DNA from: Timaviella obliquedivisa GSE-PSE-MK23-08B
GTDB taxonomy: Bacteria > Cyanobacteriota > Cyanobacteriia > Elainellales > Elainellaceae
Direction: 5' to 3'
Length of the DNA stretch: 64,000 nucleotides
NCBI GenBank assembly: GCA_019358855.1
Contig: JAHHII010000006.1
Location: 186,001 to 250,000, forward strand
The first letter of the stretch is position 1; the number at the start of each line of letters is the position of its first letter. A program made the translations under genes and the position numbers. Of this stretch, positions 12,029 to 27,640 are shown one piece after another. The notes beneath the pieces were generated by a model. That model saw only the letters and a program-made list of their open reading frames with translations, had not been told where the DNA came from and did not search any database.

Positions 12029-12336
12029 CGCGATCTCTCAATAAATATAAAAAGTTTTCTAACCTGATTTAAACTCTAGCAACCGCTGACAGACTGTTCT
12101 CAATGAACTTGTCTTAGTAAACTTAAGTCCAAGCAAGTCAAAGTCAAACATCCTTTTCTCCTCCAGCTTAATTTGCTCTAGCTCAATCTTCTATACTAAA
12201 GATGTTGCGCCCTAAAGAACGTGACTAGGATTGTAGAGACTTCACCAGAGTCTGAAACAGCGCCATGCTGCGAGTTCCCCTGGTAGTGCATCTCAGTATT
12301 TTAATGGGCTTAAAATAATCAAAGGACTTAATTAGG
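12029..12336. other. Divergent intergenic region (oxygenase/msrB)
   Basis: 308 bases with promoters for the Rieske gene (minus) and msrB (plus). A possible msrB -10, TAAAAT at 12311-12316, has no good -35. I see no conserved structure or small gene. Confidence 0.3.
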
Positions 12337-12750
12337 ATGAGTGACGAAATGGCAAATAAAATACAGAAAACAGATGCCGAGTGGAAGCAAATGCTGACTC
12401 CTGAGCAATACCGAGTGACTCGGCAAAAAGGTACAGAACGCGCATTTACGGGAGAATACCACGACAGCAAAGAGAAAGGCATTTACCAATGCGTTTGTTG
12501 CGGCAGTGACCTATTTACCTCTGATACCAAGTACAGTTCTGGGACGGGCTGGCCTAGCTTCTGGGATCCTATTAGCAAAACCAGCGTAGAGCTTGTCGAA
12601 GATCGCACTCTGTTTATGCGCAGAACTGAAGTAGTTTGTGCCAATTGCGACGCGCATTTAGGACATGTGTTTGGCGATGGGCCTGAACCGACTGGACAAC
12701 GCTATTGCATGAACTCTGCTTCTTTGAAATTGGTTGATCCTAAGAATTAG
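12337..12750 (+). CDS. msrB: Peptide-methionine (R)-S-oxide reductase
   Basis: 137 residues. MsrB reduces the R epimer of methionine sulfoxide in proteins. Seen: two CxxC zinc pairs (CVCC and CANC), the substrate segment GTGWPSFW, and the catalytic cysteine in RYCMNSASL (Cys124). Start ATG 12337; the ATG five codons later is an alternative. The last 11 bases overlap the convergent PepSY-like gene. Confidence 0.95.
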   Translation: MSDEMANKIQKTDAEWKQMLTPEQYRVTRQKGTERAFTGEYHDSKEKGIYQCVCCGSDLFTSDTKYSSGTGWPSFWDPISKTSVELVEDRTLFMRRTEVVCANCDAHLGHVFGDGPEPTGQRYCMNSASLKLVDPKN

Positions 12751-13021
12751 GTTGAGACGGCTTTTTGCGAAATAGACCTGACATGCTCAAACCTGTAATC
12801 AGCATGATGGCAAGTCCTAAACCATTCAAAATGGGATAAATGCCTCCTAGGTGAAAGAGTTCACCGCTGTGCAAGCCCAGCAGAAAGTTACGGGAAATCC
12901 CCAGGTTAAAGTTCCATTCAGCAACCATTGTCACTAGCATTCCTGTAACGGTGGTGAGGATAAGTGGCAGAGCGACAATAACAGACAGAGTACGATGATA
13001 TTTCCGAAAGGCTCGTTTCAT
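12740..13021 (-). CDS. Small PepSY-associated TM family protein
   Basis: 93 residues. A basic N-terminus (KRAFRKYHRTLS) leads into a hydrophobic helix (about 13-33), a short loop with LLGLHSGELFHLGGIYPILNG and a second helix (about 66-84) ending FRKKPSQPNS. The FRKYHR and HSGELF elements resemble the N-terminal and first-loop pieces of PepSY-associated TM proteins such as PiuB-like iron-uptake proteins, here reduced to one module. Function in metal or redox handling is inferred only. The 3' end overlaps msrB by 11 bases (convergent). Its promoter region carries a palindrome and three direct repeats (separate entry), pointing to tight control. Confidence 0.7.
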   Translation of the reverse strand: MKRAFRKYHRTLSVIVALPLILTTVTGMLVTMVAEWNFNLGISRNFLLGLHSGELFHLGGIYPILNGLGLAIMLITGLSMSGLFRKKPSQPNS

Positions 13022-13041
13022 AGAAATAGATCGGCGAGAAG

Positions 13042-13109
13042 AATATAGTCGGTAGGATCATGATCATCCTACTGACTGTTATATCTAAATTTATATCTAA
13101 TTTATATCT
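13042..13109 (-). promoter_or_regulatory. Promoter with palindrome and three direct repeats
   Basis: Read on the minus strand toward the PepSY-like gene: three copies of AGATATAA (13102-13109, 13091-13098, 13079-13086; periods 11 and 12 bases), then a perfect inverted repeat GTAGGAT (13052-13058)/ATCCTAC (13066-13072) around a 7-base centre, then a -10 TATATT at 13042-13047. The repeats resemble tandem sites of an OmpR-type regulator; the palindrome over the -35/spacer could be a repressor operator. Confidence 0.5.
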
Positions 13110-13127
13110 GAGACGGCTCCGGTCACT

Positions 13128-13271
13128 TTATCTTTCGCCGCGCTGGTCACGCCGATCAGGTTTTGCCCTACAGTAATTGGCAGCATCAGTTGTAGCTTTC
13201 TCAGTGTTGTAGCCTGCGATTGCCAGCACGCTCACTGTAGCGATCGCCAGCATTGAATGCGACCAAATCAT
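13128..13271 (-). CDS. Possible 47-residue exported small protein
   Basis: The ATG at 13269-13271 has AAGGA eight bases upstream, and gives MIWSHSMLAIATVSVLAIAG, a signal-like hydrophobic start, followed by a polar, Arg-rich tail ending DRRDQRGER. A longer frame from 13334 exists but lacks a ribosome site. No family recognised; the real gene status is uncertain. It precedes the PepSY-like gene on the same strand. Confidence 0.35.
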   Translation of the reverse strand: MIWSHSMLAIATVSVLAIAGYNTEKATTDAANYCRAKPDRRDQRGER

Positions 13272-13477
13272 AAAGAGATCCTTTGAAAACCTGTAGCCGC
13301 TGACACTCAATAATGCGCGAGGAAAGATAGGCAAGGAATCATCAAGAAGTCGAAAAAACCTACCTTTTTAAGGTTTTGGGCTTTCGTTTCTCTTCCGGAA
13401 TCAAACTCATGAGAAATATCTGGCAGCCAGCAAAAATGATAGGATGAATAATGAAAGAATTATGAAATCACCTTCCT

Positions 13478-14788
13478 ATGGCTGACTCGTCCCAACCACC
13501 AAGCCTTCCCGAAGTCCACCGTAGCATCCCCATTCCCGAGAAAGGATTTTGGCGTAAGCTTTTAGCCTACGCTGGGCCTGGGTATCTCATATCGGTTGGG
13601 TATATGGATCCTGGCAATTGGGCGACTGATATTGCTGGCGGGTCACGATTTGGCTACACCTTACTCAGCGTAATATTGCTATCGAACTTGATGGCAATGC
13701 TATTGCAAGCCCTTTGTGTTCGGTTGGGAGTTGCCACTGGAAAAGACTTAGCCCAAGCCTGTCGAGATTACTTCGGCAAACGAACTAGCTTTGTTCTCTG
13801 GATACTCTGCGAAATTGCGATCGCTGCCTGTGACCTAGCCGAACTTTTGGGCAGCGCGATCGCTCTTCAGCTTCTCTTCGGGCTACCGCTTGTGTACGGT
13901 GTCTGCCTCACTGCCCTTGATGTTTTCGCCTTACTCTTCCTTCAACACAAAGGCTTCCGCTATGTCGAAGCGCTGATCATTACTCTTGTAACCACCATCG
14001 GCATCTGCTTCACCGCCGAGACCCTCTTTGCCAAGCCTAATATGGGTGGAATTTTGCAAGGCTATATTCCCAATGTCGAAATTTTACGCAACCCAGAAAT
14101 GCTGTACCTGGCGATCGGCATTTTAGGGGCAACCGTCATGCCCCATAATCTCTATCTCCATTCTTCCATTATTCAAACTCGCCAATGGCAACCCACCGAA
14201 CAAAAACGCTGGGAAGCTATCAAATTTGGCACCCTCGATTCAACCATTGCCCTGTTGTTAGCGCTGTTCATCAACTCCGCTATCTTAATTGTGTCTGCGG
14301 CTGTGTTCCACGCTTCTGGAAATCAACAGGTTGCCGAAATTCAGGATGCTTATCAGTTGCTTTCCCCCTTGGTTGGGGTAGGAGCCGCAAGCACTATCTT
14401 TGGTTTAGCCTTACTCGCCTCTGGGCAAAGTTCGACCCTAACTGCTACTCTGGCAGGGCAAATTGTCATGGAAGGGTTTGTGCGACTGCGGATGCCTGCA
14501 TGGCTGCGGCGCTTGGCGACTAGGCTATTGGCTATGGTTCCAGCGCTGATTGCTGTGATCTGGTTTGGAGAGCAAAGCACTGGGCAACTGTTAGTGTTGA
14601 GCCAGGTCATTTTGAGCTTGCAACTCTCGTTCGCAGTTGTGCCACTGGTCATGTTCACCAGCGATCGCCGCATCATGGGAGAATTCGTTAACCCTTCTTG
14701 GCTTAAAACTTCGGCTTGGGGCGTGGCGATCGTCATTATGGGATTAAATGGCTGGCTACTAATCCAAACTTTTCTAAGCTGGTTTTAA
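13478..14788 (+). CDS. Nramp-family divalent metal transporter
   Basis: 436 residues with about 11 hydrophobic helices. The metal-binding signatures of Nramp proteins are present: DPGN in helix 1 (Asp44-Asn47) and MPHNLYLHS in helix 6 (Met221-Asn224). Nramp/MntH proteins carry Mn(II) or Fe(II) with protons into the cytoplasm; the Met of helix 6 fits a transition-metal rather than Mg/Al preference. Start ATG 13478; no strong ribosome site. A short inverted repeat ATAAT/ATTAT at 13448-13463 lies between promoter region and start and could be an operator. Neighbours do not form an operon. Confidence 0.92.
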   Translation: MADSSQPPSLPEVHRSIPIPEKGFWRKLLAYAGPGYLISVGYMDPGNWATDIAGGSRFGYTLLSVILLSNLMAMLLQALCVRLGVATGKDLAQACRDYFGKRTSFVLWILCEIAIAACDLAELLGSAIALQLLFGLPLVYGVCLTALDVFALLFLQHKGFRYVEALIITLVTTIGICFTAETLFAKPNMGGILQGYIPNVEILRNPEMLYLAIGILGATVMPHNLYLHSSIIQTRQWQPTEQKRWEAIKFGTLDSTIALLLALFINSAILIVSAAVFHASGNQQVAEIQDAYQLLSPLVGVGAASTIFGLALLASGQSSTLTATLAGQIVMEGFVRLRMPAWLRRLATRLLAMVPALIAVIWFGEQSTGQLLVLSQVILSLQLSFAVVPLVMFTSDRRIMGEFVNPSWLKTSAWGVAIVIMGLNGWLLIQTFLSWF

Positions 14789-14802
14789 GCCTAACAAGTC
14801 GC

Positions 14803-15111
14803 CTAATTTTCAAATAGATTGCGATCGCCCCAAAACGGGTCAAAAGACGGATCGATGGCTTCTAAGAAATCAGGCTTTTTCAATTGAGTAGGAGGGCGAT
14901 CGGTGCTCCATGCCCACCATGCTGTTTCGCACTTACACTTGTAAAACTCTTGCCACTTACGGCGATGCTCTGGATTGTAAACCGGCGATCGACGATTGAT
15001 CCACACCTGAGTTGCTTCGATCGAAGCCGCACGACAGCTAGGACAACAGAAAGACTGGGCATGAATTGCAGGCTGAATCCAGTCAGGAGGAGTTGGAGCG
15101 AAAGCTTCCAT
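14803..15111 (-). CDS. Conserved hypothetical zinc-ribbon-like protein
   Basis: 102 residues. Two cysteine pairs, CCPSC (about residues 22-26) and CKC (about 59-61), flank a helix rich in Arg/Asn, as in a zinc ribbon. Trp-rich segments (EFYKCKCETAWWAWSTDRPP) and an acidic end (DPSFDPFWGDRNLFEN) follow. I recall similar uncharacterised cyanobacterial proteins but no assigned role. Convergent with the Nramp gene, 14 bases apart. Confidence 0.65.
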   Translation of the reverse strand: MEAFAPTPPDWIQPAIHAQSFCCPSCRAASIEATQVWINRRSPVYNPEHRRKWQEFYKCKCETAWWAWSTDRPPTQLKKPDFLEAIDPSFDPFWGDRNLFEN

Positions 15112-15299
15112 AGCACACAGGGGATGAGGACATTTACATGGTACAAGGTTCGGAGAAAGGCAAGATGAGAGTTAAGCTTTAAAGTTCGCTACGTCACGGT
15201 CAGCAGAAAATTCAAAAGAGCAAGCGACTAAAGTTAGGACTTTGATGGGCAGGCTAAATCCTGTTCAGCTTATTCTGTTCTTGCGTTCCCTTAACTATT

Positions 15300-16778
15300 A
15301 TGCCTATCCTCAATTTCGTCTCCTTCATCGGAATCTTTGGGCTATGTGCGATCGCTTGGTTATTCTCCGAAAACCGTAATCCCAAATATTTCCCTTGGCG
15401 AGTCGTCATTATGGGAATTGGCTTACAGCTTGTATTGGGCGCGCTTGTCTTTTCGGTGCCTGGTGTAAGAGACTTGCTGCAAATCTTTAGTAACTTACTC
15501 AATGTTCTATTTGATGCAGCAGACGCTGGAGCTAGGTTCATCTTTGGTCGGAATATTCTACCCTTACCCGGTCAAGAGCCTATTATCCTGTCGCCATTGG
15601 CAGAGGGTGCAAGCTGTGCACCCGATACGGCAGGGCAAGTAATACCTGGTTTTTGTGGCATCAAGTTAGGCTATATCTTTGCCTTTCGGGCATTACCCGC
15701 AGTCATTTTCTTTTCAGGATTAATGGGGCTGCTCTATAACCTGGGCGTTATTCAGGTCATTACCAATATCTTCGCTAAAGTTTTCTACACCGTGATGCGG
15801 CTGAGTGGGGCTGAAGCGTTAAGTGGGGCTGCCAATATTTTTGTCGGCATTGAAGCGGCGATCGTGGTTCGTCCCTTTCTCGCAAAAATGACCCGCAGTG
15901 AACTCTGTGCTATCCTTTCCTGCTGCTTTGGCACGGCAGCTTCTTCTACTTTAGCGATCTACGTCAATTTCCTCCGACCTGTGTTTCCTAATATTCTGGG
16001 ACATTTGGTTTCCGCGTCCATTATGGCGATTCCAGCTTGCTTTGTTCTCTCCAAAATTTTGGTTCCCGAAACCGAGATCCCCTTAACCGCAGATGGCATT
16101 CCTAACGAAATGATGGCACTGGCACTCACTGATCATTCAGACCAGCCCGAAACCGTTGGCGGCGAACCGATCGAGCGCGTCAGCCCCATGGATGCCGCCA
16201 TCTTAGGAGCGTTAGATGGGGTGAAAATGGCAGTGCCGATCGCCGCAATCCTGATTTTGATTTTGGGCATGGTCTATCTCATTAATCAAATCTTTGGCGG
16301 TTTGGCAGCGTTGCCCAGTCCCGTTGGTGATATCTTCAAAGTCGTCACGCTGCAAAATATTTTAGGAGCCTTGTTCTTACCCCTGACAGCGCTGTCAGGG
16401 GTATCTTTGAACTGGAACGAACTCTGGGAATCTTCAGTCATTATTGGGCGACGATTGTTTGAAACCGCTATTCCACCCTATCAAGCATTAGGTGCAGCGG
16501 CGGCTTTACCGACAGCAGAACGAGTCATTAGCGATCGCGCCGTCCTCATTATTAGCTATGCTCTCTCCGGTTTTGCCCACCTCGCCTCAGTGGGTATTTT
16601 TGTTGGTGGCACTGCTGCCCTTGCTCCTTCCCGCCGCAGAGAAATTACAGAACTGGGCTGGAAAGCGCTCTTTGTCGGCACGTTAGCCACCTATATGATT
16701 GCCTGTGTTGCCGGAGTATTTGATACAGGCAGCGCTAGCATTTTGGGTTCTCCAGCGGCTCTTACCTTAGTTAAATGA
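15300..16778 (+). CDS. Concentrative nucleoside transporter (NupC/CNT family)
   Basis: 492 residues, many hydrophobic helices. CNT-family elements are visible: an N-terminal helix module, the Gly-rich gate segment (FRALPAVIFFSGLMGLLY), SGAEALSGAANIFVGIEAA containing the substrate-binding loop, TRSELCAILSCCFGTAAS and the C-terminal NILGALFLPLTALSGV with FAHLASVGIFVGG. These transporters take up nucleosides with Na+ or H+. A Cys-containing loop (about residues 97-120) is an extra compared with the E. coli NupC as I recall it. The stop codon is formed by the first unit of an 18-bp tandem repeat. Confidence 0.9.
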   Translation: MPILNFVSFIGIFGLCAIAWLFSENRNPKYFPWRVVIMGIGLQLVLGALVFSVPGVRDLLQIFSNLLNVLFDAADAGARFIFGRNILPLPGQEPIILSPLAEGASCAPDTAGQVIPGFCGIKLGYIFAFRALPAVIFFSGLMGLLYNLGVIQVITNIFAKVFYTVMRLSGAEALSGAANIFVGIEAAIVVRPFLAKMTRSELCAILSCCFGTAASSTLAIYVNFLRPVFPNILGHLVSASIMAIPACFVLSKILVPETEIPLTADGIPNEMMALALTDHSDQPETVGGEPIERVSPMDAAILGALDGVKMAVPIAAILILILGMVYLINQIFGGLAALPSPVGDIFKVVTLQNILGALFLPLTALSGVSLNWNELWESSVIIGRRLFETAIPPYQALGAAAALPTAERVISDRAVLIISYALSGFAHLASVGIFVGGTAALAPSRRREITELGWKALFVGTLATYMIACVAGVFDTGSASILGSPAALTLVK

Positions 16779-16821
16779 CACACGAGAATTAAATGACACA
16801 CGAGAATTAAATGACACACGA
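16771..16821. repeat. 18-bp tandem repeat at the transporter stop codon
   Basis: Unit TTAAATGACACACGAGAA occurs at 16771-16788 and 16789-16806, with a third partial copy (TTAAATGACACACGA) at 16807-16821. The first copy provides the TGA stop of the nucleoside transporter. Two and a half identical copies suggest a recent slippage duplication. Confidence 0.9.
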
Positions 16822-16848
16822 TCGCTAGAGGCATCTCGAAGCGATCGC

Positions 16849-17742
16849 TCACTGCGCTAACCAAGTCTCTAGATCCGCCAAACTCACAAAATCTAGTAGT
16901 GCTTCGCCTAGTGCGTCCAGCCGCTCTAAAGGAAGCGCTTCGACTTGGGCTTGCATTGCTTGTGGCAAAGAACCCACACGCCGATTCAGTTGACGGAGAA
17001 TGAGCGATCGCTCTCCCCGTTCAATTCCTGCTTCCATCCAGCTTGTCACGACTTCCATAACAACCTCTTTTTGACTTGGATCAATTTTATCAAGTTCCGT
17101 TTGAAATACCTCTTCTTCCTGCTGTTCTAGCCTTAAATAGGTATCTACAAACCCTGATATCATCTTTGCCTGAGCCGGATTCAGTCGCAGTCGAGCCATT
17201 TGCTTTAAGCACTCTAGCTTTACAAGGGGTCGCTCTTGTCGCTCCATCTTCATTTTTGCCATGAAGGCACTGGCAACCGGATTTTGTAGTTGGGCATACG
17301 CTTGCCAGTTCAAGTGGTTGAGCCGAATTGCTCGATAGTTAAACTGCAAAACTTCCCAATCAGAAAACTTAACTTTGTAAGTACGGTCACCTTCTTCACG
17401 CGGACTACGATGAGAAAAGATCACAATGGGATAAACAGGCAACTGATAAATGCGATGCAGTTGAGAAAAATAATTGAACATGCGGCGATCGAAGTTTTTA
17501 CCGAACACGCCTTGATGCTCTAGATGCACGATAAAAAATGAGTCTTCGTTTAGAAACCTGGCTTTGACTACCACATCGGCTTCGTAAGTGTCGCCCTCAG
17601 TTAAGTCAGCGAAGATTTCTTGAGGTTGGAACTCCAGGGAATGGCGATCGAGATAGACGGCGACTTGAGGAAAAAACAAGTCGATGAATTCTGGAAAAAA
17701 TTCCCCCAGTAATTCTTTAAAGGCATGATCATGATCTGGCAT
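16849..17742 (-). CDS. Rpn-family PD-(D/E)XK nuclease with DUF4351 tail
   Basis: 297 residues from the ATG at 17742, which I prefer because it gives the family-typical MPDHDHAFKELLGEFFPEF; a longer frame from 17841 overlaps the upstream gene. Rpn/YhgA proteins are DNA endonucleases that promote RecA-independent recombination. Seen: ADVVVKARF...FIVHLEHQG (the D and E-x-Q parts of the nuclease core, about residues 57-80), and a DUF4351 C-terminus (about 245-297: ILRQLNRRVGSLP...LADLETWLAQ). The ATG follows the stop of the Hsp70-like frame after two bases, so it is translationally coupled to it. Such genes are common in cyanobacteria and often scattered. Confidence 0.88.
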   Translation of the reverse strand: MPDHDHAFKELLGEFFPEFIDLFFPQVAVYLDRHSLEFQPQEIFADLTEGDTYEADVVVKARFLNEDSFFIVHLEHQGVFGKNFDRRMFNYFSQLHRIYQLPVYPIVIFSHRSPREEGDRTYKVKFSDWEVLQFNYRAIRLNHLNWQAYAQLQNPVASAFMAKMKMERQERPLVKLECLKQMARLRLNPAQAKMISGFVDTYLRLEQQEEEVFQTELDKIDPSQKEVVMEVVTSWMEAGIERGERSLILRQLNRRVGSLPQAMQAQVEALPLERLDALGEALLDFVSLADLETWLAQ

Positions 17743-17744
17743 TG

Positions 17745-19574
17745 CTAAGCCTCTGCAAACACAGGTAGGGCTAATGGCTCTGCCAACTTCTGCTGAGTTG
17801 TGGTTAATAGCGTATCTAAATAGCTGCGTAAATGATTCCACTGATGGCGATTAGGACGATAGGTTTGATCAGGCTGCTTGGCAAACAAAGGAGCAAGCTG
17901 CACCGACTGGTAGTCAGGGTTAGCGCGTGAGTCGGAAGTGAGCCAAAGGGCATCAGGATCGGCGAGAGCAAAACCACTGGGTAGGTGTCCATCCAATAAA
18001 GCCAGAATGGGAGTATGGCAAACTTGGGTGTCAATGCCTTGGTGCTCTAATAAAATCATGATTTCAGCGATCGTCACAGGATGATTGGGGAAAACTCGCA
18101 GCAGTTCTTGCAGCAAATAGTAGTCGCTGTACTGGTGGCGGCAGCGATCGACAACCTGGCGATGCAAGGGCAGAACTGCTAACCCGTAAGCTACACGGCT
18201 ACAGCTTGGGATACAAGTTTCTTGGGGTGATGAGGGGAGATCATAGGTGTCTTGAATAATAGTGGCGTTGGGCAGCTTTTGCCGCAGCCACCGAGCGATC
18301 GCCCCCAATGATGCCGTTCCGCCACTGCAAATCACTTGCTGAACAGCTAAAACAGGCGTTCCAGTTTGAGTTAGCAGCGCGTTCAGTTCGCGGTTTAACC
18401 GTTGCACATAAGGTAAAATTACCTGACTCGCGAGGTCTTGTCGCAGGATTGTTTTATAAACCTCTCCCAGTTTTAGGGTAAAGCTGCTCTGCTGCTGGAG
18501 CTTAATCTTGAGGTATTGTGCTGCCTCTAACAATGCCTGCCCTGCTGCCGAATCAGTCAACCGTTGGTGCAGTCGGTATCGCTGAGCCAGGTCAGGCTCA
18601 CCAGGAGCAGGAAAAATTAAGTCATCAAAATAGATCTCTTCTAGAGAAATTTTCATATCTAGATCCACTTCGCCTGGTTCACCCATTTCCCGATTCAAAA
18701 TGAGTTGACAAATAATATCTTGATCAATGCTACTGCCCGCGTAGGATAAGGTGCGAAATTGAAAATCTTTGTGGTGCAAAACTTGCGATCGACCGGGTAA
18801 ATTGACCATTGCCATTTCTGTAACCGCGGCTCCTGCATGGAAAACCAAAGTTTCGCCCTGCCAATCGGCGTGATGCAAATGTACATCTTGTCCAGGATGC
18901 GGCGGCAACTGAATCTCTGCTCGATCGGCAGGACAGATGGCTGAAAGAAGAATCGCGATCGCCTCTTCAACTAAGAAAATTTGCTCAGGCTGTGCGACCA
19001 ATCTCGCCCCCAAGACTGCCTCCCGCAGATTGAAGCTGTAGGTATCCGACCAACCTGCCGGGTAGCCAAGTACCACCGTTGCTAATTGCCGCATTGCCTG
19101 CTGAAAAGCTTTGTCTTCTAGCCCCATTGCCCCCGACAGCAGGGCAGCAGCATTAGGACAGTTGGGATTGAGAGTCATTAATAAACTTTGAAGAGACTGA
19201 TGCACCCAACTCAGCGGGAACTGGAGATGATCAGCGCCTTGCAACATAGGCTCCCACCGAGACAGGGTTGGGGAGTAGTGAGGAATGCCCAACTTGAGGT
19301 AGGGCTTAAAGTTCTTTAAGACAAACTCTGGAGTGTCGGCTGTGGCGGCTAGAGCAACGGCAGCAGGGAGACAAAATTTTCGGCGATCGCCTGGCTGCTG
19401 GCTATGCCAATAGAGAGGATAAAGCTGACGAGTTTCACGGTTTAGCAAAACGGCTGAGATCCCCGTCGTGCCAATGTCAATTCCGAGATGCCAAGCTTTA
19501 GAAGCTGACGGGGAGGATGGGTGGCTCGCTCGATCACCCCCGTCCTGGACGGTGCTCTTCTCTAGAGTGCGATC
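17745..19574 (-). CDS. Hsp70-like actin-fold ATPase, frame lacking its own start codon
   Basis: The frame is fully open from just after a run of ten A (19575-19584) to the TAG at 17745. Its first conserved element, LGIDIGTTGISAVLLN, is the phosphate-1 loop of the Hsp70/actin fold (about bases 19442-19496); VFHAGAAVTEMAMVNLP resembles phosphate-2 and VICSGGTASLGAIARWL the adenosine loop. The only usual start codon (TTG 19448) lies inside or after the first loop, so a protein begun there would lose nucleotide binding. No ATG, GTG or TTG occurs between the preceding in-frame stop and 19448. Most likely it is the C-terminal part of a fusion with the coiled-coil frame, reached by a one-base slip at the A run. 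C-terminal about 150 residues have no recognised motif. Confidence 0.8.
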   Translation of the reverse strand, partial: DRTLEKSTVQDGGDRASHPSSPSASKAWHLGIDIGTTGISAVLLNRETRQLYPLYWHSQQPGDRRKFCLPAAVALAATADTPEFVLKNFKPYLKLGIPHYSPTLSRWEPMLQGADHLQFPLSWVHQSLQSLLMTLNPNCPNAAALLSGAMGLEDKAFQQAMRQLATVVLGYPAGWSDTYSFNLREAVLGARLVAQPEQIFLVEEAIAILLSAICPADRAEIQLPPHPGQDVHLHHADWQGETLVFHAGAAVTEMAMVNLPGRSQVLHHKDFQFRTLSYAGSSIDQDIICQLILNREMGEPGEVDLDMKISLEEIYFDDLIFPAPGEPDLAQRYRLHQRLTDSAAGQALLEAAQYLKIKLQQQSSFTLKLGEVYKTILRQDLASQVILPYVQRLNRELNALLTQTGTPVLAVQQVICSGGTASLGAIARWLRQKLPNATIIQDTYDLPSSPQETCIPSCSRVAYGLAVLPLHRQVVDRCRHQYSDYYLLQELLRVFPNHPVTIAEIMILLEHQGIDTQVCHTPILALLDGHLPSGFALADPDALWLTSDSRANPDYQSVQLAPLFAKQPDQTYRPNRHQWNHLRSYLDTLLTTTQQKLAEPLALPVFAEA

Positions 19575-21804
19575 TTTTTTTTTTGAGCAGTTCCTCCAAC
19601 TCAGGCGATCGTCCGTCTAACTCTAGATCAGGAGATGGCTCAAATAATTCATCGTCTAACCCATCAAACGAAAAGGCATTGAACTCTTCAGGGTCTTCAG
19701 TCAAGAACGCTTCACGGTCGATTGGAGTAGATGAATGATCTTGCGGCATAGAAGTTTGGGGGGGAGATGCAGAAATAGATTCTGGGAGAACAGAGGTTTC
19801 TAAAGATAAGCCAACTTCCGAGTCAGGTGGATCAGAAACTGAAAAGTCAAAGTTGTTGAGGTCGAACTCTGTGGAGGATTGTGGTAGCAGGGTAGGATCA
19901 GCAGATTGCGGTAAGCCGACGGGATGCCCAGTCTCATCATCAAACAGCGTCATGTCCGCTTGAACTTGAACAGGTGAAACTTGAGGCAGATCAAAAATAG
20001 AATCGGAGAACTCTAGGTTTGATAAATCTGATTCCAGCAACTGACGCGTATCTTCTGGCAGAGCTTCTAAGTCAAGCATTGCAGGCGGAGCTGCATCTAG
20101 CAACAGACTTTCTTCAGGGTGAGCGGGTTCATAGGTGTTTTCTTCAAACTGTTCATCGATTTGAGAGGAAACAGTTGAGGGATCACCCATAAGATCAGAG
20201 AGAGAGGCGATCGCATCAGGGGGAGTTGACTCTGGGTCAGCAGTGACTTCTTGCAGAGGTGTCGCCGAGATCCCTTGCGGATCTCTCGAAGATCTCGTGG
20301 CTGGCTCAGGGTCAGGAACCTTCAGCAAAAATATTTCGACCGATTGAGATAACTCAGCATCAGAAAATTCTGGAGGAGGCGCTGCTTCTGCTTCAACGAC
20401 CTCTGCTGGATCACCCATGCCTGAGAAAAACAAGTCACTTAGCTCAGCTATCTCTGCGATCGGAGTTTCTGTCTCTACCACTGCTTCGACTGGAGTCACA
20501 AATTCAGCAGTAAGCTCAACTGCTACTTCCCCAGCTTCCACTTCTACCCTATCTCCAAACAAACTTTGGTAAAGCTCATCATCAGCTTCCGAGTCATCAA
20601 CCTTTGACGATTCGGCACCTGCACTTAATTCTTCAACACCCCTGCCGTTCAGTTGGTTCAACAAATCCATCGCCGAAGATAAGTCTTCAGTTAAGTCCTC
20701 AGTCTCAGCATTAGGGGGTGCAGTTGAAATTGAGGGCAACGGCTCTAAACTTTCCTGAAACAGAGTAATGTCTTCTGCATTGGTTGAATCTAGATGGTGC
20801 TGAAGTAGGGTAATTTCATCGTCATAAAAGCTGAGGGGGGCATCATCAGTCGAGAGGTCTAAAGGCTCTAAACCAAGGTCTGACTGATCCAAATCAGGAG
20901 TTTGACTAGCTGGGTTTAAGCCATTTAGTTCTCCTAAAAGTTGATCAATCTCAGTATCTACAGAAGGGGAACTCGTACCTAAACTAGGCGCTTCGACCTG
21001 AAGGGAAGATTGCAAGTAGGTTGAAGTTTCGCGCCCTAAATGTTCTGCCAAGCGATTGACCAACGCCGAAAACATTGCCTCACCCTGCTGCCCCAAGGTG
21101 TGCATTCGATTCAAGCCTTGCTCTAACGAATCCTCGTAGCTATTAATGTTAGCGTGCATGGATTCAAAAATGATGCGAATGGCTGAATCGAGGCGCATCA
21201 TAAGCTGATCAGATTGGGCTTGTAGACGCTGCATGTGCTGGAGCCGCTGGGCTGGGCTAAGAGCATCGCCATCGCCCAAGAAGGGCTGATCAGCAGGCGT
21301 TTGCGCCGATAAACTTGCCAGCATATTGGCGACTTGCCCCGTCAAGTTTTCTTGCAACTGCTGCATAGAAGACTGAAGAAACTCAGACACAAATTGCTGA
21401 TTAGCGGCAGGTAAAGACTGCTGCCGCTGTGCTTCAAGCTGCTGAACTTCTTGTGCCAATGCCGATCGCCGCTGTTGCAATGCATCAATGTCTGAGCGCA
21501 AAGGCTGGAGCATATTAGTGCGCAAATAATTCATTTCCTGCAAAACAGCTTGCAAAACCTGTTGAGCAGTTTCAACCGACTGCCCCGTCATTGCGCCAGG
21601 GGCAGTACTGCCTGTTAACGGTCTATCCTCTGCTTCCCGTGTCTGTTGTTGTAGCACTACTAGGTAGCTGCGGGTTTGTTGCAGCACCTGGCGCTGCTGG
21701 TCTACCTCACCAGATTGCAGCCAAGGAAAACGAGGGATGCTTTTACGAAGCGCCTCGTCAATTTGTCGAATGAGTTCTTGAATTTGGACAGTTTGCGGAG
21801 TCAC
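19534..21804 (-). CDS. Coiled-coil and acidic low-complexity protein, likely N-terminal part of the Hsp70-like fusion
   Basis: 756 residues from GTG 21804, chosen because AAGGA lies eight bases upstream and because VTPQTVQIQELIRQID begins the conserved-looking part; an ATG at 21900 would add 32 residues. Residues about 1-290 are helical and Gln/Leu-rich coiled coil (LRSDIDALQQRRSALAQEV); about 290-745 are very acidic with repeated DL/EL segments such as LSDLFFSGMGDPAE and LSDLMGDPST. The frame ends 14 codons after the A10 run in an Arg-rich tail (RSHSREEHRPGRG) unlike the rest, supporting the idea that the natural product continues into the ATPase frame. A dispersed 29-bp repeat sits inside (20269-20297). 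Function unknown. Confidence 0.8.
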   Translation of the reverse strand: MTPQTVQIQELIRQIDEALRKSIPRFPWLQSGEVDQQRQVLQQTRSYLVVLQQQTREAEDRPLTGSTAPGAMTGQSVETAQQVLQAVLQEMNYLRTNMLQPLRSDIDALQQRRSALAQEVQQLEAQRQQSLPAANQQFVSEFLQSSMQQLQENLTGQVANMLASLSAQTPADQPFLGDGDALSPAQRLQHMQRLQAQSDQLMMRLDSAIRIIFESMHANINSYEDSLEQGLNRMHTLGQQGEAMFSALVNRLAEHLGRETSTYLQSSLQVEAPSLGTSSPSVDTEIDQLLGELNGLNPASQTPDLDQSDLGLEPLDLSTDDAPLSFYDDEITLLQHHLDSTNAEDITLFQESLEPLPSISTAPPNAETEDLTEDLSSAMDLLNQLNGRGVEELSAGAESSKVDDSEADDELYQSLFGDRVEVEAGEVAVELTAEFVTPVEAVVETETPIAEIAELSDLFFSGMGDPAEVVEAEAAPPPEFSDAELSQSVEIFLLKVPDPEPATRSSRDPQGISATPLQEVTADPESTPPDAIASLSDLMGDPSTVSSQIDEQFEENTYEPAHPEESLLLDAAPPAMLDLEALPEDTRQLLESDLSNLEFSDSIFDLPQVSPVQVQADMTLFDDETGHPVGLPQSADPTLLPQSSTEFDLNNFDFSVSDPPDSEVGLSLETSVLPESISASPPQTSMPQDHSSTPIDREAFLTEDPEEFNAFSFDGLDDELFEPSPDLELDGRSPELEELLKKKRSHSREEHRPGRG
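19575..19584 (-). promoter_or_regulatory. A10 slippery run joining two reading frames
   Basis: On the minus strand CTC-A10-GATCGC. In the upstream frame it reads CTC AAA AAA AAA AGA; with nine A it would read CTC AAA AAA AAA GAT and pass into the Hsp70-like frame, giving one frame of 1353 codons from the GTG at 21804 to the TAG at 17745. Homopolymers of this length are known sites of RNA polymerase slippage and of sequencing errors. Confidence 0.6.
20269..20297 (+). repeat. Dispersed 29-bp repeat, copy 1
   Basis: Starts GATCCCTTGCGG and continues with a TCTCGAAGA core. It matches copy 2 at 27 of 29 positions. It lies in the acidic part of the coiled-coil gene. GAGATC/GATCTC around CCTTGCG can form a small hairpin. 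Confidence 0.75.
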
Positions 21805-22090
21805 TATTGAATCCTTTGTATTAAGCTTGACGGGCGTGTAGCTAGACTGACGGGAAGCAATACAGGAAGCAGAGGGTAAAGGATTGGCATAGCTGCCCAA
21901 ATATTAACGCCATCCCCCGTGACGGGATCAAAATAATGCTTCGATGAATGGTAATTCAGGAGATGTCATTTCTTTTACATCTTTCTACTTAAGTTGAATG
22001 GAGCTTTCAGGAAAGTCTAGCGCTTCTCTACTAATCTGTTTTGATGTGGTAACTCAGATTTAGGAGTGACATGGATTAAAGATACAAAAG

Positions 22091-22501
22091 TTAAGATTGA
22101 GCGATCGCCACTGTCACGCCGCCTAAGTAATCTTCATGACGAAAGGTCTGTTTCGTGACACAAAGGTTTGCCCCAAGAGGTGCAGCTAGAAGGGCAGCCG
22201 CTTCGGCAACGCTAGGGCAACCCACTAAGGCTTGGGTACGGGGAGAGGAGCAAGTGGTGGGAATTTGGCTCAACTCGGCGGCGGTGAAGCTCAACAGGGA
22301 AAGATGGCGATCGCGGCAGTATTCTACTAATCCTGCTTCATCGGCTTTGCGATCGAGGGTGGCAATTGCGGCGATCGCAGTTTCGAGGAGATGATGACTT
22401 TGGCAGACCTGGGCGATCGCCAGTTCGATGAGTAAGCGAGAGGAATGGCGCTGACAGCCAATGCCGACCCAGAGTGTTTTTGGCAGGTGGGTTTTTGGCA
22501 T
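22091..22501 (-). CDS. CobE/CbiG C-terminal domain protein
   Basis: 136 residues from ATG 22501 (MPKTHLPKTLWVGIGC); a frame start at 22570 would overlap the upstream U32 gene. The pattern VGIGCQRHSS, ATLDRKADEAGLVEYC and PSVAEAAALLAAP matches the CbiG_C/CobE domain. In CbiG this domain accompanies opening of the delta-lactone ring in anaerobic cobalamin synthesis; CobE itself has no firm reaction. As a stand-alone domain it fits the CobE type. No other cobalamin gene is in the window. It follows the U32 gene by 49 bases on the same strand. Confidence 0.8.
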   Translation of the reverse strand: MPKTHLPKTLWVGIGCQRHSSRLLIELAIAQVCQSHHLLETAIAAIATLDRKADEAGLVEYCRDRHLSLLSFTAAELSQIPTTCSSPRTQALVGCPSVAEAAALLAAPLGANLCVTKQTFRHEDYLGGVTVAIAQS

Positions 22502-22550
22502 AGGGTTAAATTTTCTGACTGACTGTTTTAAAGAATCTACTTTAAAGAAT

Positions 22551-25052
22551 TTACCGTGATGCGGTTCCACGAGTCACCCCGAGTTGATTCTGCACTTTCA
22601 ACGCTCTCCAAAGCTGAGAACCTGAGATTTCTCCTTGCAAAAGCTGACGGTAATAGTGAAGAGTTTGTATGACTTGCTCGGGGCTTTCATCTACAAATTC
22701 AACGCGGAAATGATGCACTCCTAAATTTTGAAGCTGTGAAACATATTCTGCGCCCGTTTGAGCCGTCGCATTAAATACAGTATTACGACACCCTGCATCA
22801 GCTTTGAGAACGTGCTGTTTCCCTGTGCGATCGAGCAACTTCACCTCGTGTTGTTCACAGGGGCGACCACAATTTGTATAATCAGTTCCCTGTGACATGA
22901 ATGCACAAAAGACACAATGCTCCATATGAAACATCGGCATATGCTGGTGGATAGTGATTTCAAACCAATCGGCAGGACAGCTTGTGATTAAATCTTTAAG
23001 TTGGTCAATATTGAGGTCATAGGAAGCAGTAAGGCGCTCCAAATTAAAGTGCTGCTTCAAGTAATCGGCAGTCAGACCGTTGGCAACGTTAAGGGAAAAG
23101 TCTCCCAGGCAGCGCGCGGCTTTGCCGTTACCGCAAGGGTCGCCTGCAAAAAATTGAAGCTGATCATAATTTCGCACTAAATATCCATCGGCTTCGCTAT
23201 CGCGCACTTGCTGTAAAATCCAGTTCTCTCCCGGTTTTGTAATTCGAGGAGGGGCGACCCAAATCTGTTGATGATGGGAGTGCGCTAGGGTGACGGCATC
23301 TCGGTAAGTTCGGGGATCTTCAAATTCGCAGTAGACCGTGGAAATATCAGATTCTACAACGGCTTTAAGCTGCTCAAAAGTGCGAACTAACGGTACGAGG
23401 GAGGGGTAATGCGATCCCTTGCGGATATCTCGAAGAGCTCGCCCGGATAAATTCTCTGCTATCTGAGGGTAAAGGGTAAGACGGGATGCATTAGGGTTGA
23501 GTTGCCATTGTTTGGGGCGCGATCGCAGTTCTTCTAGACCGTTCACAATTTCTCGTCGTAACCGATTCAGTTCACTGACTGGAATCATGACCTTACCTGT
23601 AATATGATTCGTTAATTTTTCCAGATAAAAAGGTGTGTTTCCTAGTCGTCCTAATTGTTCTTCTAGACGTTCTGAAGTCAGATGTTTGTTGTGCGCCTCG
23701 ACCAAAGGCATAGTAGATTCGACCTGGGTGATATTTCCTTGTTCATCACGGGCGATCGCCACTAAGTTCTGTCCAATCTCGCCGTGGATTTCTAGCTGAA
23801 TAGAACGTTGAAACTGAGGGATTTCTGTATTAAAACTTTGGCGAAGATGGCGATCGAGTTCAGGATCGCTCGTTTTCCAAACCTTGTTCCCTACTTCAAT
23901 TTTGCGGAAGTTCAACGCATCTCGTCCAAAGCTCAAAACTGCATTCTGTCCTCGTTGTTCAACCGTGTAAATTCTACCGCCCTCTTCCTTCGCCTCTGGA
24001 TGTCCGGAATCAAACACAACACCATCTCCGGCTTTGGGAAATTCCTGTACTTGTACCGTTACCTTTTCATTGCGAATTTCTGTGACTTCTCCCAGGTAAA
24101 AGCCTCGTTTTTTGCCAAACCGAGCGTGAACTAATTCTTGGTTGTTAATTCCTTCAAACCAGCCTGTATAAAGACCGCGAGAGAACGCCATTTCCAGGTT
24201 ATATTGCTCTTCTGAAAGCACCGTATGTTCTAAATTAGCCATGATCCGATCTAACGCTTTGCGATAAACCTGAGTGACGTTAGCCACATATTCTGGCGTT
24301 TTCAAACGACCTTCGATTTTAAGGCAAGTTACTCCTGCTTTTACCAGTTCGGGTAGAACTTCTAGACCCGCTAAATCTTGAGGACTGAGAAGATATTTGC
24401 GATCGCCCAAATCCAACAATTTTCCATCTACCACCAAGTCATAAGGCATCCGGCAAGCCTGCGCACATTCTCCCCGATTCGCCGATCGTCCGCCCAAAGC
24501 CTCGCTCGTCAAACATTGTCCCGAATACGCGACACACAACGCGCCATGCACAAACACTTCTAACGGCAGTTCAACCGCTTGCTGAATTTTGTTGATTTCT
24601 TTAATAGAACACTCACGAGCCAGCACCACCAATTGACAACCCAACGCTTGGGCAAACTTCACACCCGCCGCGCTGGTAATGGTCATTTGCGTAGAAGCGT
24701 GAATGGGAAAATCTGGTGACAGGTGACGAATCAGGCGACAGATGCCAATGTCTTGCACGATCGCCGCGTCTACTCCGGCTGCAATCATAGAGCGTAAATA
24801 CTGCTCGGCTTCAGCCAGTTCGCTAGGAAAAATCAGCGTGTTGAGCGTGACATAGCCCTTAACTCCCCGACGATGCAAAAACGCCATCAGTTCGGGCAAA
24901 TCTGCCTCGGTAAAATTTTGCGCCCGCATTCTGGCATTAAACCGATCCAAACCAAAATAAATGGCATCGGCTCCATTTTCCACAGCGGCTTTGGCACAGT
25001 CCCAGTATCCGGCTGGAGCAAGGAGTTCGGGGCATTTGAGAGCAGAAGGCAT
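22551..25052 (-). CDS. U32 family protein (RlhA-like, long form)
   Basis: 833 residues: an N-terminal U32 TIM-barrel (PELLAPAGYWDCAKAAVENG...FVHGALCVAYSGQCLTS...RGECAQACR) and a long C-terminal part containing a DUF3656-like region and a Cys motif HCVFCAFMSQGTDYTNCGRPC. The E. coli U32 member RlhA hydroxylates 23S rRNA C2501; related proteins act in tRNA hydroxylation or ubiquinone synthesis, and true protease activity is doubtful. The paired cysteines (about residues 170-200 and 710-730) suit an Fe-S cluster. Start ATG 25052 gives the typical N-terminus. It carries copy 2 of the 29-bp repeat (23413-23441). The RlmI-like gene lies 29 bases upstream. Confidence 0.9.
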   Translation of the reverse strand: MPSALKCPELLAPAGYWDCAKAAVENGADAIYFGLDRFNARMRAQNFTEADLPELMAFLHRRGVKGYVTLNTLIFPSELAEAEQYLRSMIAAGVDAAIVQDIGICRLIRHLSPDFPIHASTQMTITSAAGVKFAQALGCQLVVLARECSIKEINKIQQAVELPLEVFVHGALCVAYSGQCLTSEALGGRSANRGECAQACRMPYDLVVDGKLLDLGDRKYLLSPQDLAGLEVLPELVKAGVTCLKIEGRLKTPEYVANVTQVYRKALDRIMANLEHTVLSEEQYNLEMAFSRGLYTGWFEGINNQELVHARFGKKRGFYLGEVTEIRNEKVTVQVQEFPKAGDGVVFDSGHPEAKEEGGRIYTVEQRGQNAVLSFGRDALNFRKIEVGNKVWKTSDPELDRHLRQSFNTEIPQFQRSIQLEIHGEIGQNLVAIARDEQGNITQVESTMPLVEAHNKHLTSERLEEQLGRLGNTPFYLEKLTNHITGKVMIPVSELNRLRREIVNGLEELRSRPKQWQLNPNASRLTLYPQIAENLSGRALRDIRKGSHYPSLVPLVRTFEQLKAVVESDISTVYCEFEDPRTYRDAVTLAHSHHQQIWVAPPRITKPGENWILQQVRDSEADGYLVRNYDQLQFFAGDPCGNGKAARCLGDFSLNVANGLTADYLKQHFNLERLTASYDLNIDQLKDLITSCPADWFEITIHQHMPMFHMEHCVFCAFMSQGTDYTNCGRPCEQHEVKLLDRTGKQHVLKADAGCRNTVFNATAQTGAEYVSQLQNLGVHHFRVEFVDESPEQVIQTLHYYRQLLQGEISGSQLWRALKVQNQLGVTRGTASR
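23413..23441 (+). repeat. Dispersed 29-bp repeat, copy 2
   Basis: Inside the U32 gene, encoding part of the segment RALRDIRKGSH on the opposite strand. 27 of 29 bases equal copy 1 and 25 of 29 equal copy 3. Confidence 0.75.
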
Positions 25053-25081
25053 GGGGGCGATCGCAAGAGAACCTCTTCATC

Positions 25082-26269
25082 CTATCGCACTCGTCCGACG
25101 ACAAACTTGAGGTAACGCCCTTCGGGAAATTGGGCTGGGACGGGATGATCGAGCGGCTGTCCGGCTTCGTGGATAATTTGCAGGCGATGTCCGGTACTGG
25201 CTCCGGCGGCGGCGATCATTTCCTTAAATGCGTCGGGGTTAACTTGGCTAGTGCAGCTTGCGGTTGCTAATAAGCCGCCAGGGGTAACGCATTGCAGGGC
25301 AAGGGCATTGAGTTTGGTGTAGGCACGGAGAGCGGCGTGGCGATTTTGCTTGGTTTTGGCAAAGCTGGGCGGGTCGAGAATTATTAAGTCGAAGCGCTGT
25401 TTTTGTTCGACGTAGCGACTGAGTAAGGTGAAGCAATCTTCGGTGATAAAGGTATGGCGAGATTCGTCTAATTGATTGAGATGAATATTTGTCGTTGTGG
25501 CTTGTGCTAGCGATCGCCCTACATCTACACTGACCACTCGCTTTGCTCCGCCTCGCAGGGCATACAGTGAAAAGGCTCCCGTGTAGGAAAAGCAATTCAG
25601 TACTTCCCGGTCTTGACTCCAACCTTCTAAAAACCGCCGATTTTCTCGATGATCCAGGAATAGTCCAGTTTTTTGTCCGGTCTGCAAATCTACCTGAAAC
25701 TTTAGATGATGTTCTTGTACCGTCAAATCTTTCGGCGCGGCTTGTCCCCAGAACAACCTGCCTTTACCGGATTCTTCATCTCTTTCTTCGGGCAAATCAG
25801 CAGAGTGCTTGGTTCGTAGAATAATGCCTTTGAGAGAATAGGTGGCGATTAACGCAGCAACCAGATCCTCTAGAAGTCTGGCAGCGCCTTCCATGTAGGT
25901 TTGAATCACGGCATAGTCGCCATATAAATCGACCGTTAGTCCAGGTAGCCCGTCACCTTCGCCAAACAGCCAGCGGTAGGCGGTGCAGCCCTGTTGCCGG
26001 AGGGGCGATCGCAGTTCCCAGGCAGCTTGCACTTGGTCATAAAACCATTTTTTGTCGGGCACCTGCCGTTCTGAAAAAATCCGAATGGCGATCGAACCGT
26101 TGGCATCCCACAATCCATATCCTGTCCACCCCCCGCAGCGCACCTTCACCCAAGTTCCCGATGGAAAGCGAACTGAGGGCGGCACATGGTTGCGGTAAAC
26201 CCACGGATGTCCTTGGGCGAGGCGTTGTTTGAGGTGCGTGGGTAGTTGAATGTCTGGGGCTTTGGGCAT
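25082..26269 (-). CDS. RlmI-like 23S rRNA m5C methyltransferase
   Basis: 395 residues. An N-terminal PUA-like domain (QGHPWVYRNHVPPSVRFPSGTWVKV) is followed by an RlmI-type middle domain and a Rossmann methyltransferase: VLNCFSYTGAFSLYALRGGAKRV (SAM loop), LDPPSFAK (catalytic/binding), ATASCTSQV. E. coli RlmI methylates C1962 of 23S rRNA. Start ATG 26269. It is 29 bases upstream of the U32 gene on the same strand; both may act on 23S rRNA, a plausible functional pair. Confidence 0.88.
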   Translation of the reverse strand: MPKAPDIQLPTHLKQRLAQGHPWVYRNHVPPSVRFPSGTWVKVRCGGWTGYGLWDANGSIAIRIFSERQVPDKKWFYDQVQAAWELRSPLRQQGCTAYRWLFGEGDGLPGLTVDLYGDYAVIQTYMEGAARLLEDLVAALIATYSLKGIILRTKHSADLPEERDEESGKGRLFWGQAAPKDLTVQEHHLKFQVDLQTGQKTGLFLDHRENRRFLEGWSQDREVLNCFSYTGAFSLYALRGGAKRVVSVDVGRSLAQATTTNIHLNQLDESRHTFITEDCFTLLSRYVEQKQRFDLIILDPPSFAKTKQNRHAALRAYTKLNALALQCVTPGGLLATASCTSQVNPDAFKEMIAAAGASTGHRLQIIHEAGQPLDHPVPAQFPEGRYLKFVVGRVR

Positions 26270-26382
26270 GGGGTGATGAGTGGAGCGATCGCGGGGATGG
26301 GATTAATTTCTTCAAGTTGCTGTTGTGGATTCTGATACTACCTCTAAAAGTTTCATCGTAATGCGATCGCCCCCTCTTCTCC

Positions 26383-26607
26383 TTACGCTGCTTGCAAAGT
26401 TTGCGGTTGAGGTAGGAGCCTTCCCTCGGCTTCATAACTTTCGATGATTAGTTCCAGCACCTCTTGAGCATTTTTGAGCGCCTCTTCGTAGGTGTCACCG
26501 TGGGTAAAATACCGCTGAATCTCTGTCGAAAATTCTGGCAGTTCAACTAGGTAGCAGTCATCCTCATCAGACCAAGCAATATTTACTCGATATTTAAGTT
26601 GGCTCAT
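26383..26607 (-). CDS. hicB: HicB-like antitoxin
   Basis: 74 residues. The sequence KYRVNIAWSDEDDCYLVELPEF...THGDTYEEALKNAQEVLELIIESY is the HicB partial RNase-H-like fold, which binds and inhibits HicA. There is no obvious DNA-binding domain after it (ends GRLLPQPQTLQAA), so it is the short form. Its ATG overlaps the hicA stop by four bases, as usual for hicAB. Confidence 0.9.
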   Translation of the reverse strand: MSQLKYRVNIAWSDEDDCYLVELPEFSTEIQRYFTHGDTYEEALKNAQEVLELIIESYEAEGRLLPQPQTLQAA

Positions 26608-26819
26608 TCGTTTTGTTCCTTTTCATCTAATTGTTGTAACGCTGTATTTACCAATTTTTCTAAGTAGGGCTTTGCGTCTTGGCTATCTTTCCCAGCCAGA
26701 GTAATTGGCAATTCTGGTAGTCCCGAATGAATCCAGCGTTCGTGGCTACCCCGGATTCGCTTACATTCAAAGCCAGCTTGACGTAGAATTGCCTTTAATT
26801 CCCTGATTTTCTTGGGCAT
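26604..26819 (-). CDS. hicA: HicA-like mRNA interferase toxin
   Basis: 71 residues. KIRELKAILRQAGFECKRIRGSHERWIH is the dsRNA-binding-like HicA core with the catalytic His in GSHERW; the usual GHGSH-like motif is present as RGSH. HicA cleaves mRNA and tmRNA and is neutralised by HicB. The tail (PYLEKLVNTALQQLDEKEQNE) is typical. The toxin gene comes first. An Uma2 gene follows upstream at 52 bases, also on the minus strand. Confidence 0.9.
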   Translation of the reverse strand: MPKKIRELKAILRQAGFECKRIRGSHERWIHSGLPELPITLAGKDSQDAKPYLEKLVNTALQQLDEKEQNE

Positions 26820-26871
26820 ATTTTTTCCAATTGTGCCAACTCTTTAACTGCAATTCCTCTGGTTAATGCTC

Positions 26872-27453
26872 TTAAAAATCCCATTCTTCAAACAAATCTG
26901 TGACAGGCATGGAGAAATCCGGCACCACATCCTCACCTTCTAACTGATCATGAGGACGCAACAAGCGATCGGGTTCCGGTGAATGGTAAACCAACACGTA
27001 TTTCTCATCGGGATGAATGACCCACACTAAACGAGTGTCATTGTTAAAATACTCCACAATTTTTTCGTGGATCTCTTCAACAGTGTTGCCAGGTGAGAGA
27101 ATTTCGACCACTAGATCAGGAGAACCTTGAAAGAAGCCGCGCGGTGGACGCTTTAATCCCTTGAGCCGTTCTCTTGCCACAAAGGAAACATCGGGCGATC
27201 GCTTGTTACCCGTCTTTAAAGTAAACGCTGTACTAGAATCGCAGACGGCACCCAGCCTATTTTGCTGTACAAACGTTGTCAAAACTGCGACTAAAATACA
27301 AGCCACATAGCCATGCTCCATCCCCGAATTGCCCATATCCACCAACGCCTCATTCACTAACTCATAACGATGCCCATCTTTAGGCAACGCCATAAACTCC
27401 TCATCCGTCCAAGTCTTCTGATCAATAGAGATAGTTTTGCCAGAGATCGCCAT
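26872..27453 (-). CDS. Uma2 family endonuclease-like protein
   Basis: 193 residues. The Uma2 (DUF820) pattern is clear: TDEEFMALPKDGHRYELVNEALV, then the nuclease-like core SPDVSFVARE and DLVVEILSPGNTVEEI, ending VPDFSMPVTDLFEEWDF. The acidic residues of the PD-(D/E)XK-like fold (Asp in SPDV, Glu in VVEIL) are kept. Uma2 proteins are greatly expanded in cyanobacteria; their biological role is unknown. It precedes hicA on the same strand by 52 bases. Confidence 0.9.
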   Translation of the reverse strand: MAISGKTISIDQKTWTDEEFMALPKDGHRYELVNEALVDMGNSGMEHGYVACILVAVLTTFVQQNRLGAVCDSSTAFTLKTGNKRSPDVSFVARERLKGLKRPPRGFFQGSPDLVVEILSPGNTVEEIHEKIVEYFNNDTRLVWVIHPDEKYVLVYHSPEPDRLLRPHDQLEGEDVVPDFSMPVTDLFEEWDF

Positions 27454-27640
27454 AGTTCCAGCCCTCTCAGATTTTCCTCAATCGCTGTCTCCAGTTTCGC
27501 ACTTTCAGTAAACCGCTACTCCCAAGTTATCCTCAAGTCAGAGATTCAAGCCATCTCTTGAGAATTTCATTGGCAGATTCTACTCCCAAGGATTGCTCGC
27601 GCTACTATATTGGGTGCATGAAATTACGACGCGCGATCGC

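Follow-up and report, generated by a model that had tools for sequence, protein, structure and literature searches.

Few cellular genes, the cases treated in PMC4256274 among them, are known to use programmed transcriptional slippage. In dnaX of Thermus thermophilus, transcription slips at an A9 run and about half of the product is the short form (PMC1088944). In tssM1 of Citrobacter rodentium, the slippery tract is A11, slippage amounts to 20-25%, and both forms as well as their ratio are needed; slippage in tssM1 and in tssM3 of Yersinia pseudotuberculosis yields opposite products (PMC4256274). The dependence on tract length has been measured in E. coli with magnesium-chelatase cassettes, which gave 63% frameshifting at 11 As and 40% at 9 As (Antonov et al. 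2013, PMC3711429). An unconserved direction of the frameshift was proposed in the same study as a mark of transcriptional realignment (PMC3711429).

Here, we analyzed a window of 64,000 nucleotides (the whole stretch of DNA under study; Timaviella obliquedivisa GSE-PSE-MK23-08B, contig JAHHII010000006.1, positions 186,001 to 250,000), in which a coiled-coil frame is joined to an ATPase frame by a run of ten As. The junction is likely to be a site of programmed transcriptional slippage, through which one gene specifies a coil-only and a coil-ATPase protein; the slippage and the two proteins are inferred, and there are no RNA or protein data. The features of the locus, in positions of the window, are as follows.

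19534..21804, minus strand: coil/acidic open reading frame that begins with GTG; 756 aa with the run taken as A10
19575..19584, minus strand: A10 run, the proposed slippage site; the count is as deposited in the assembly
19562..19564, minus strand: TAG ending the third frame, 3 codons past the run
19534..19536, minus strand: TGA ending the coil frame, 12 codons past the last codon of the run
17745..19574, minus strand: ATPase frame from the first base past the run to the stop, without ATG, GTG or TTG before the loop
19461..19484, minus strand: phosphate-1 loop GIDIGTTG of an Hsp70/actin-type ATPase
17748..19493, minus strand: ATPase domain, with a predicted Hsp70-type nucleotide-binding fold over about residues 1-445 and a C-terminal extension of about 130 residues

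The GTG start of the coil/acidic frame agrees with the conserved N-terminus of its homologues, MTSxxxQIQxLIAxID. Downstream of the run, the three frames stay open for 609 (ATPase), 3 and 12 codons; because their stops are so placed, one of the three exits from the run leads to the ATPase and the other two lead to an early stop. Three claims made earlier from the letters of the window (the sequence-only reading) were upheld: (i) the A10 run at 19584-19575 on the minus strand joins the coiled-coil/acidic frame to a start-less ATPase frame; (ii) the loop GIDIGTTG lies upstream of any start, with zero ATG, GTG or TTG codons between the preceding in-frame stop of the ATPase frame and the loop; (iii) removal of one A produces a single frame, as 21804-17745 minus one A amounts to 4059 nt, i.e., 1353 codons with the stop included.

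In the proposed mechanism, RNA polymerase would slip on a run of A9-A11 and release mRNAs with one A more or one A fewer. An mRNA that stays in the coil frame would meet a stop a few codons on and specify the coil-only protein (756 aa in the window), and an mRNA that puts the ATPase in phase would specify a coil-linker-ATPase protein of 1352 aa. Because slippage runs both ways, the genome may sit in any of the three frames with both proteins still being made, and the frame of the genome would alter just their ratio. The common N-terminal coil would let the two forms assemble together; with such co-assembly, the run would set the number of subunits that bear an ATPase. Slippage itself, the two proteins and their co-assembly are inferred from sequence alone.

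The run and its conservation are shown directly by comparison of homologous loci. The search for an ATPase homologue covered 60 genomes, 36 of them from the window's family, and succeeded in 47 overall and in 31 from the family; 30 of these 31 family loci were fetched, the window included (G028, whose contig begins inside the gene, was left out). All 30 have A9, A10 or A11 between the coil and the ATPase. For a wider set, we took in another 80 named loci, the 80 best among 304 relatives, together with 40 loci that were hand-picked, not drawn at random, from the matches of a search across the phylum (102 of 386 genomes at E <= 0.001, weak matches included). From the resulting 161 sources (the window and L037-L196), four were dropped as the profile fell short of the loop (L049, L126 and L074, which have the junction run, and L185, which has none) and 17 copies were removed, leaving 140 distinct loci. 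The junction run is present in 77 of the 140 (A8 in 4, A9 in 11, A10 in 56 and A11 in 6), and in 73 it is A9 or longer. Three frame states are found among the 77 run-bearing loci: (i) 40 are continuous; (ii) 28 need one additional A to bring the ATPase into frame; (iii) 9 need one A fewer.

The distance from the run to the ATPase ranges from 64 to 1445 nt; thus, no fixed peptide accounts for the run. Among five close relatives, substitutions between the run and the loop show no more than a weak preference for third positions. The coil frame in L040 and L095 differs from the frame that enters the run, which implies a further frame break upstream of it. Several A-runs (A10, two A8 and A9) were observed in or behind the coil gene of L157, 949 to 64 nt before the ATPase, and the last one alone was taken as the junction. 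C-runs also occur near the junction in some loci, namely C10 about 1235 nt before the ATPase in L082, and two C8 about 272 and 233 nt before it in L077.

The other 63 of the 140 loci manage without a run, which counts against the slippage reading. They comprise 51 loci classed as continuous and 12 with a short ATPase frame. The coil and the ATPase share a frame in 48 of the 51; the other three are L145 and L172, which have no coil match, and L101, where the coil is out of frame without a run and the assembly has a 14-nt gap plus N. Eight of the 12 short-frame loci (L158, L163, L166, L168, L170, L171, L180 and L182) are two-gene loci, in which the ATPase has its own start, the coil frame stops 27-142 nt ahead of the conserved Trp that precedes the ATPase loop, and the longest A-run within the last 200 nt is 3-7. 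The remaining four are L085, which is cut by a contig end (as are L144 and L145), L090, which has no coil frame, and L183 and L184, in which no coil was detected (L172, L183 and L184 are the loci without a coil match). The gap of L101 aside, a coil frame meeting an out-of-frame ATPase without either a run or a separate start was not found among the 140 loci. Upstream of the ATPase of L090, in place of a coil gene, lies a segment (L090:1-585) that, judged from sequence alone, may be the end of a TnpB-type transposase.

The direction of the shift is not conserved, so the criterion of PMC3711429 for transcriptional slippage is fulfilled. A10 is shared by the window and its sister L077, whose ATPases are 89% identical, and in both the coil enters the run in the same codon phase; to reach the ATPase frame, the window needs A9 and L077 needs A11. 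Three close relatives from another family, L159 (A11), L161 (A10) and L164 (A10), represent three different frame states and have CCTAATTTC in common behind the run. The ATPase tree requires at least 17 changes of frame among run carriers, and a clade of 30 rows that contains the window (support 90) has the run in every row, with 15 loci that need one more A, 8 that are fused and 7 that need one A fewer. The tree was built with FastTree and contains flagged long branches, and the counts of changes are rough.

We compared the genome-wide A10 places, listed for 60 genomes, with the positions of the fetched loci. The junction run is the only A10 or T10 among the 4,911,535 bases of the window's genome. 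Of the 36 family genomes, 24 have a run of A10 or longer at the coil-ATPase junction, and in 11 of the 36 (G000, G001, G004, G005, G006, G009, G010, G015, G020, G022 and G035) it is the only A>=10 or T>=10 of the genome; the family genomes G016, G026 and G031 have several A10 runs elsewhere, some of them at contig ends. The window and 40 loci (501 kb) contain 40 A/T runs of at least 9, and 39 of these are the junction run; L059 and L068 lack it and have one continuous frame each. In the wider set (1.90 Mb), there are 73 junction runs versus 18 other homopolymers of at least 9, 15 of them A/T. Shuffling of the window was not decisive for A9, as 69 of 100 shuffles contained two or more A9 matches; the genome-wide count and the homologues are.

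Wrong-frame stops are clustered behind the run. For each of the two frames other than that of the ATPase, we measured how far behind the run the first stop lies, with random places in the same ATPase genes for comparison; it should be kept in mind that related loci are not independent. Among the 37 split loci, 33 have their nearest wrong-frame stop no more than 2 codons away, compared to 23% expected, and 25 have both frames stopped within 10 codons, compared to 12% expected. The 16 fused run-bearing loci outside Nostocales show the same, with a stop within 2 codons in 15 (22% expected) and both frames stopped within 10 codons in 12 (11% expected). These fused loci weigh most, since they need no rescue, yet have retained the run and the stops; accordingly, both products are expected from these fused loci too. 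The Nostocales (assigned by hand from the ATPase tree; 24 run-bearing loci, all fused) differ from this: a stop within 2 codons is found in 17%, farther than chance (33% expected), both frames are stopped within 10 codons in 1 of 24 (21% expected), and many relatives have lost the run. Because the stops lie farther than chance and the run is often lost, the run may be a relic in this group, and two products are claimed there only weakly, as a possibility.

The comparison of homologues, which the sequence-only reading had called for, thus gave a conserved A9-A11 run in 30 of 30 fetched family loci, and fused genes are present as well. Two separate genes with a normal start before the ATPase, which had been named as the refuting case, are present in 8 of the 140 loci, all of them without a run. 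The expectation that A9 would reduce the locus to a plain fusion gene was too simple, as 16 fused loci outside Nostocales retain the run. With respect to the three explanations offered at that stage, slippage that makes a short and a fused product is supported as the best reading, with neither the slippage nor the products observed; one A too many in the assembly failed as the cause of the feature, given the run and the three frame states in homologues; and a truly split gene with its own ATPase start was rejected for the window, which has no start before the loop.

The strongest rival of slippage by RNA polymerase is programmed ribosomal frameshifting, in which the ribosome slips on the A-run of a faithful mRNA. 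This explanation has some support: ribosomes are known to slip at A_AAA_AAA and A_AAA_AAG, a -1 slip of the ribosome would produce the shift required in 28 of the 37 split loci, and Shine-Dalgarno-like motifs are found upstream in 6 of the 37, about twice the frequency in random 20-mers (7.5%). However, such motifs are far from general, nine split loci, the window included, need the opposite direction, and, across loci, the first A of the run falls on each of the three codon positions of the coil frame, so there is no fixed heptamer phase. A 3' structure is missing as well, the folding behind the run having a mean z of 0.17 with only 3 of the 37 loci below -1.5. We consider ribosomal frameshifting unlikely.

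Translational coupling, in which a separate ATPase would be translated from a start inside the gene, close to where the coil frame ends, is somewhat harder to sustain. We counted candidate starts up to the loop glycine in the 37 split loci. In 35 of them there is some ATG, GTG or TTG before the loop, which leaves internal starts possible there, and a true two-gene arrangement is found in eight other loci. Against this, the window and L075 have no such codon, and in five more (L056, L113, L159, L164 and L165) a TTG directly before the loop is the sole candidate; the remaining 30 have at least one further candidate. Coupling also leaves the run, the unbroken run-bearing loci and the clustered stops unexplained, and all eight two-gene loci are without a run. 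As the main explanation, coupling is very unlikely, whereas a free ATPase from an internal start may be feasible in many species, not in the window with the usual start codons.

Phase variation, in which slippage of DNA replication toggles the fused ATPase between cells and the genome states are snapshots, appears highly improbable. In its favor, L159 (A11) has one A more than L161 (A10) and is in another frame, with ATPases that are near copies; run length therefore does change in evolution. However, phase variation does not predict the clustered stops behind the run, and RNA polymerase slippage at A9-A11 would blur the off state. Equally doubtful is a tolerated accident, according to which slippage does no more than rescue genes that have been broken, with a short product that serves no purpose. 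The unclustered stops and frequent loss of the run in Nostocales agree with it, but rescue does not require the stop within 2 codons seen in 15 of the 16 fused run-bearing loci outside Nostocales, and A10 runs are scarce in most genomes of the family (G016, G026 and G031 excepted). An assembly or sequencing error is all but excluded: homopolymers are error-prone, and the count in the window's genome is as deposited, without reads, but a run at the same junction is conserved across homologues in dozens of other assemblies, and an error is therefore rejected as the cause.

Under programmed transcriptional slippage, the preferred reading, the shared part of the two proteins would be the coil. The coil/acidic frame consists of about 270 residues of predicted helices and coiled coil, followed by a long acidic low-complexity stretch. 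AlphaFold places helices over residues 3-269 of the N-terminal part, in a poor model (pTM 0.25), and matches to Pfam are scattered and weak. The ATPase model is much better (pLDDT 87.9, pTM 0.90), with a predicted Hsp70-type nucleotide-binding fold that includes the phosphate-1 loop; beyond about residue 450, where a C-terminal beta-sandwich substrate-binding domain would be sought in an Hsp70, it is mostly helical with few strands. The best matches of the model are nucleotide-binding domains of DnaK (best Foldseek E 7e-14, TM about 0.4 by query length). In the structure search, the 50 best rows have Z of 20-22 over 285-370 residues with rmsd of 3.3-4.5 A and are nearly all Hsp70; the top rows are DnaK (Z about 22), and MreB appears at rank 48 (Z 20.1).

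Profile searches place the ATPase less clearly. PF00012 (HSP70) has no match in the window's ATPase, which is not among the six PF00012 places of the genome (the three full-length HSP70 matches are located elsewhere), and matches 4 of 37 ATPase homologues at E <= 0.01. PilM_2 matches 18 of the 37 at the same threshold and reaches 18.4 bits in the window protein, below the cut-off of 27. The ATPase resembles Hsp70 (DnaK) in its fold matches, nearly all Hsp70, and has weak profile matches to PilM and DnaK; it differs in the absence of an HSP70 match, the PilM_2 score under the cut-off and the TM of about 0.4, as well as in its extra C-terminal part and coil partner. The predicted protein is likely to be an Hsp70-fold ATPase; we could not assign its cyanobacterial family in Pfam or NCBIfam. 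In four fused loci, L173-L176, the loop reads GIDWSDRG, not GIDxGTTG; judged from sequence alone, the ATPase may be inactive there.

The neighborhood of the gene was analyzed using families defined as single-linkage BLAST groups, with one member per group scanned against profiles (two for the Crp type). In 88 of the 140 loci, the coil gene has a divergently oriented Crp-type regulator gene (cNMP_binding, HTH_Crp_2) on its upstream side (e.g., L112:4781-5476, minus strand). On the same side, there is a DUF2232 membrane-protein gene in 84 loci and a CobT-type phosphoribosyltransferase gene in 62. Downstream of the ATPase, on the same strand, a bacterial sugar transferase gene is found in 38 loci (e.g., L073:1612-2307, minus strand); it is near the EPS_sugtrans model, just under its cut-off. 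None of these four neighbors is present in the window or in L077. They may point to regulation by a Crp-type factor, and perhaps to a connection with polysaccharide; a function has not been demonstrated. In the window, a gene with a DUF4351 domain (16849-17841, minus strand) lies just 3' of the ATPase and, read from its GTG, overlaps the 3' end of the ATPase gene in another frame, although an internal ATG may be its true start. Other neighbors within 11000-30205 include genes for Rieske oxygenase, SelR, Nramp, Na+ nucleoside transporter, CbiG C-terminus, peptidase U32, SAM methyltransferase and Tex-type proteins.

A bolder reading can also be formulated, toward which we are more skeptical than favorable. 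According to it, slippage in much of one bacterial phylum would be a dosage device that mixes ATPase-bearing and ATPase-free coiled-coil subunits in a ratio tuned by evolution, and the two-gene, slippage-joined and fused forms would be alternative solutions to the same stoichiometry; the ratio might depend on run length, genome frame and perhaps growth conditions.

We found no report of slippage in the coil-ATPase gene in the open-licence literature that we searched. The main text of the GeneTack survey (PMC3711429) does not contain "Hsp70", "DnaK" or "coiled", and uses "chaperone" for a phage tail protein only. If the slippage reading is correct, a slippage gene has been kept through a whole family of genomes and recurs in others, and an uncharacterized Hsp70-fold ATPase acquires a coiled-coil partner. 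Annotation of the gene is likely to be inconsistent, as two genes, one gene or a pseudogene. There are close species pairs in each frame state; together with the conservation of the gene, they would provide a ready-made series for relating run length and frame to protein ratios in vivo.

The clusters of the GeneTack survey (magnesium-chelatase, dnaX, transposase) resemble the gene of the window in having conserved A-runs at frame transitions, with an unconserved direction in slippage families (PMC3711429). The gene shares with tssM1 and tssM3 a poly-A tract before an early stop and, in the proposed reading, slippage that makes the long form; however, the tssM protein and its function are different, and only one other tssM is involved, whereas the run of the coil-ATPase gene is present in every fetched locus of the family and in other families. 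In dnaX of Thermus, too, a cellular gene contains an A-run that is closely followed by a stop, and its short and long products from one gene correspond to the two inferred for the coil-ATPase gene. The protein is another one, and the genome of Thermus is in the full-length frame, whereas the coil-ATPase gene is found in each of the three frames, with a run whose place along the gene varies.
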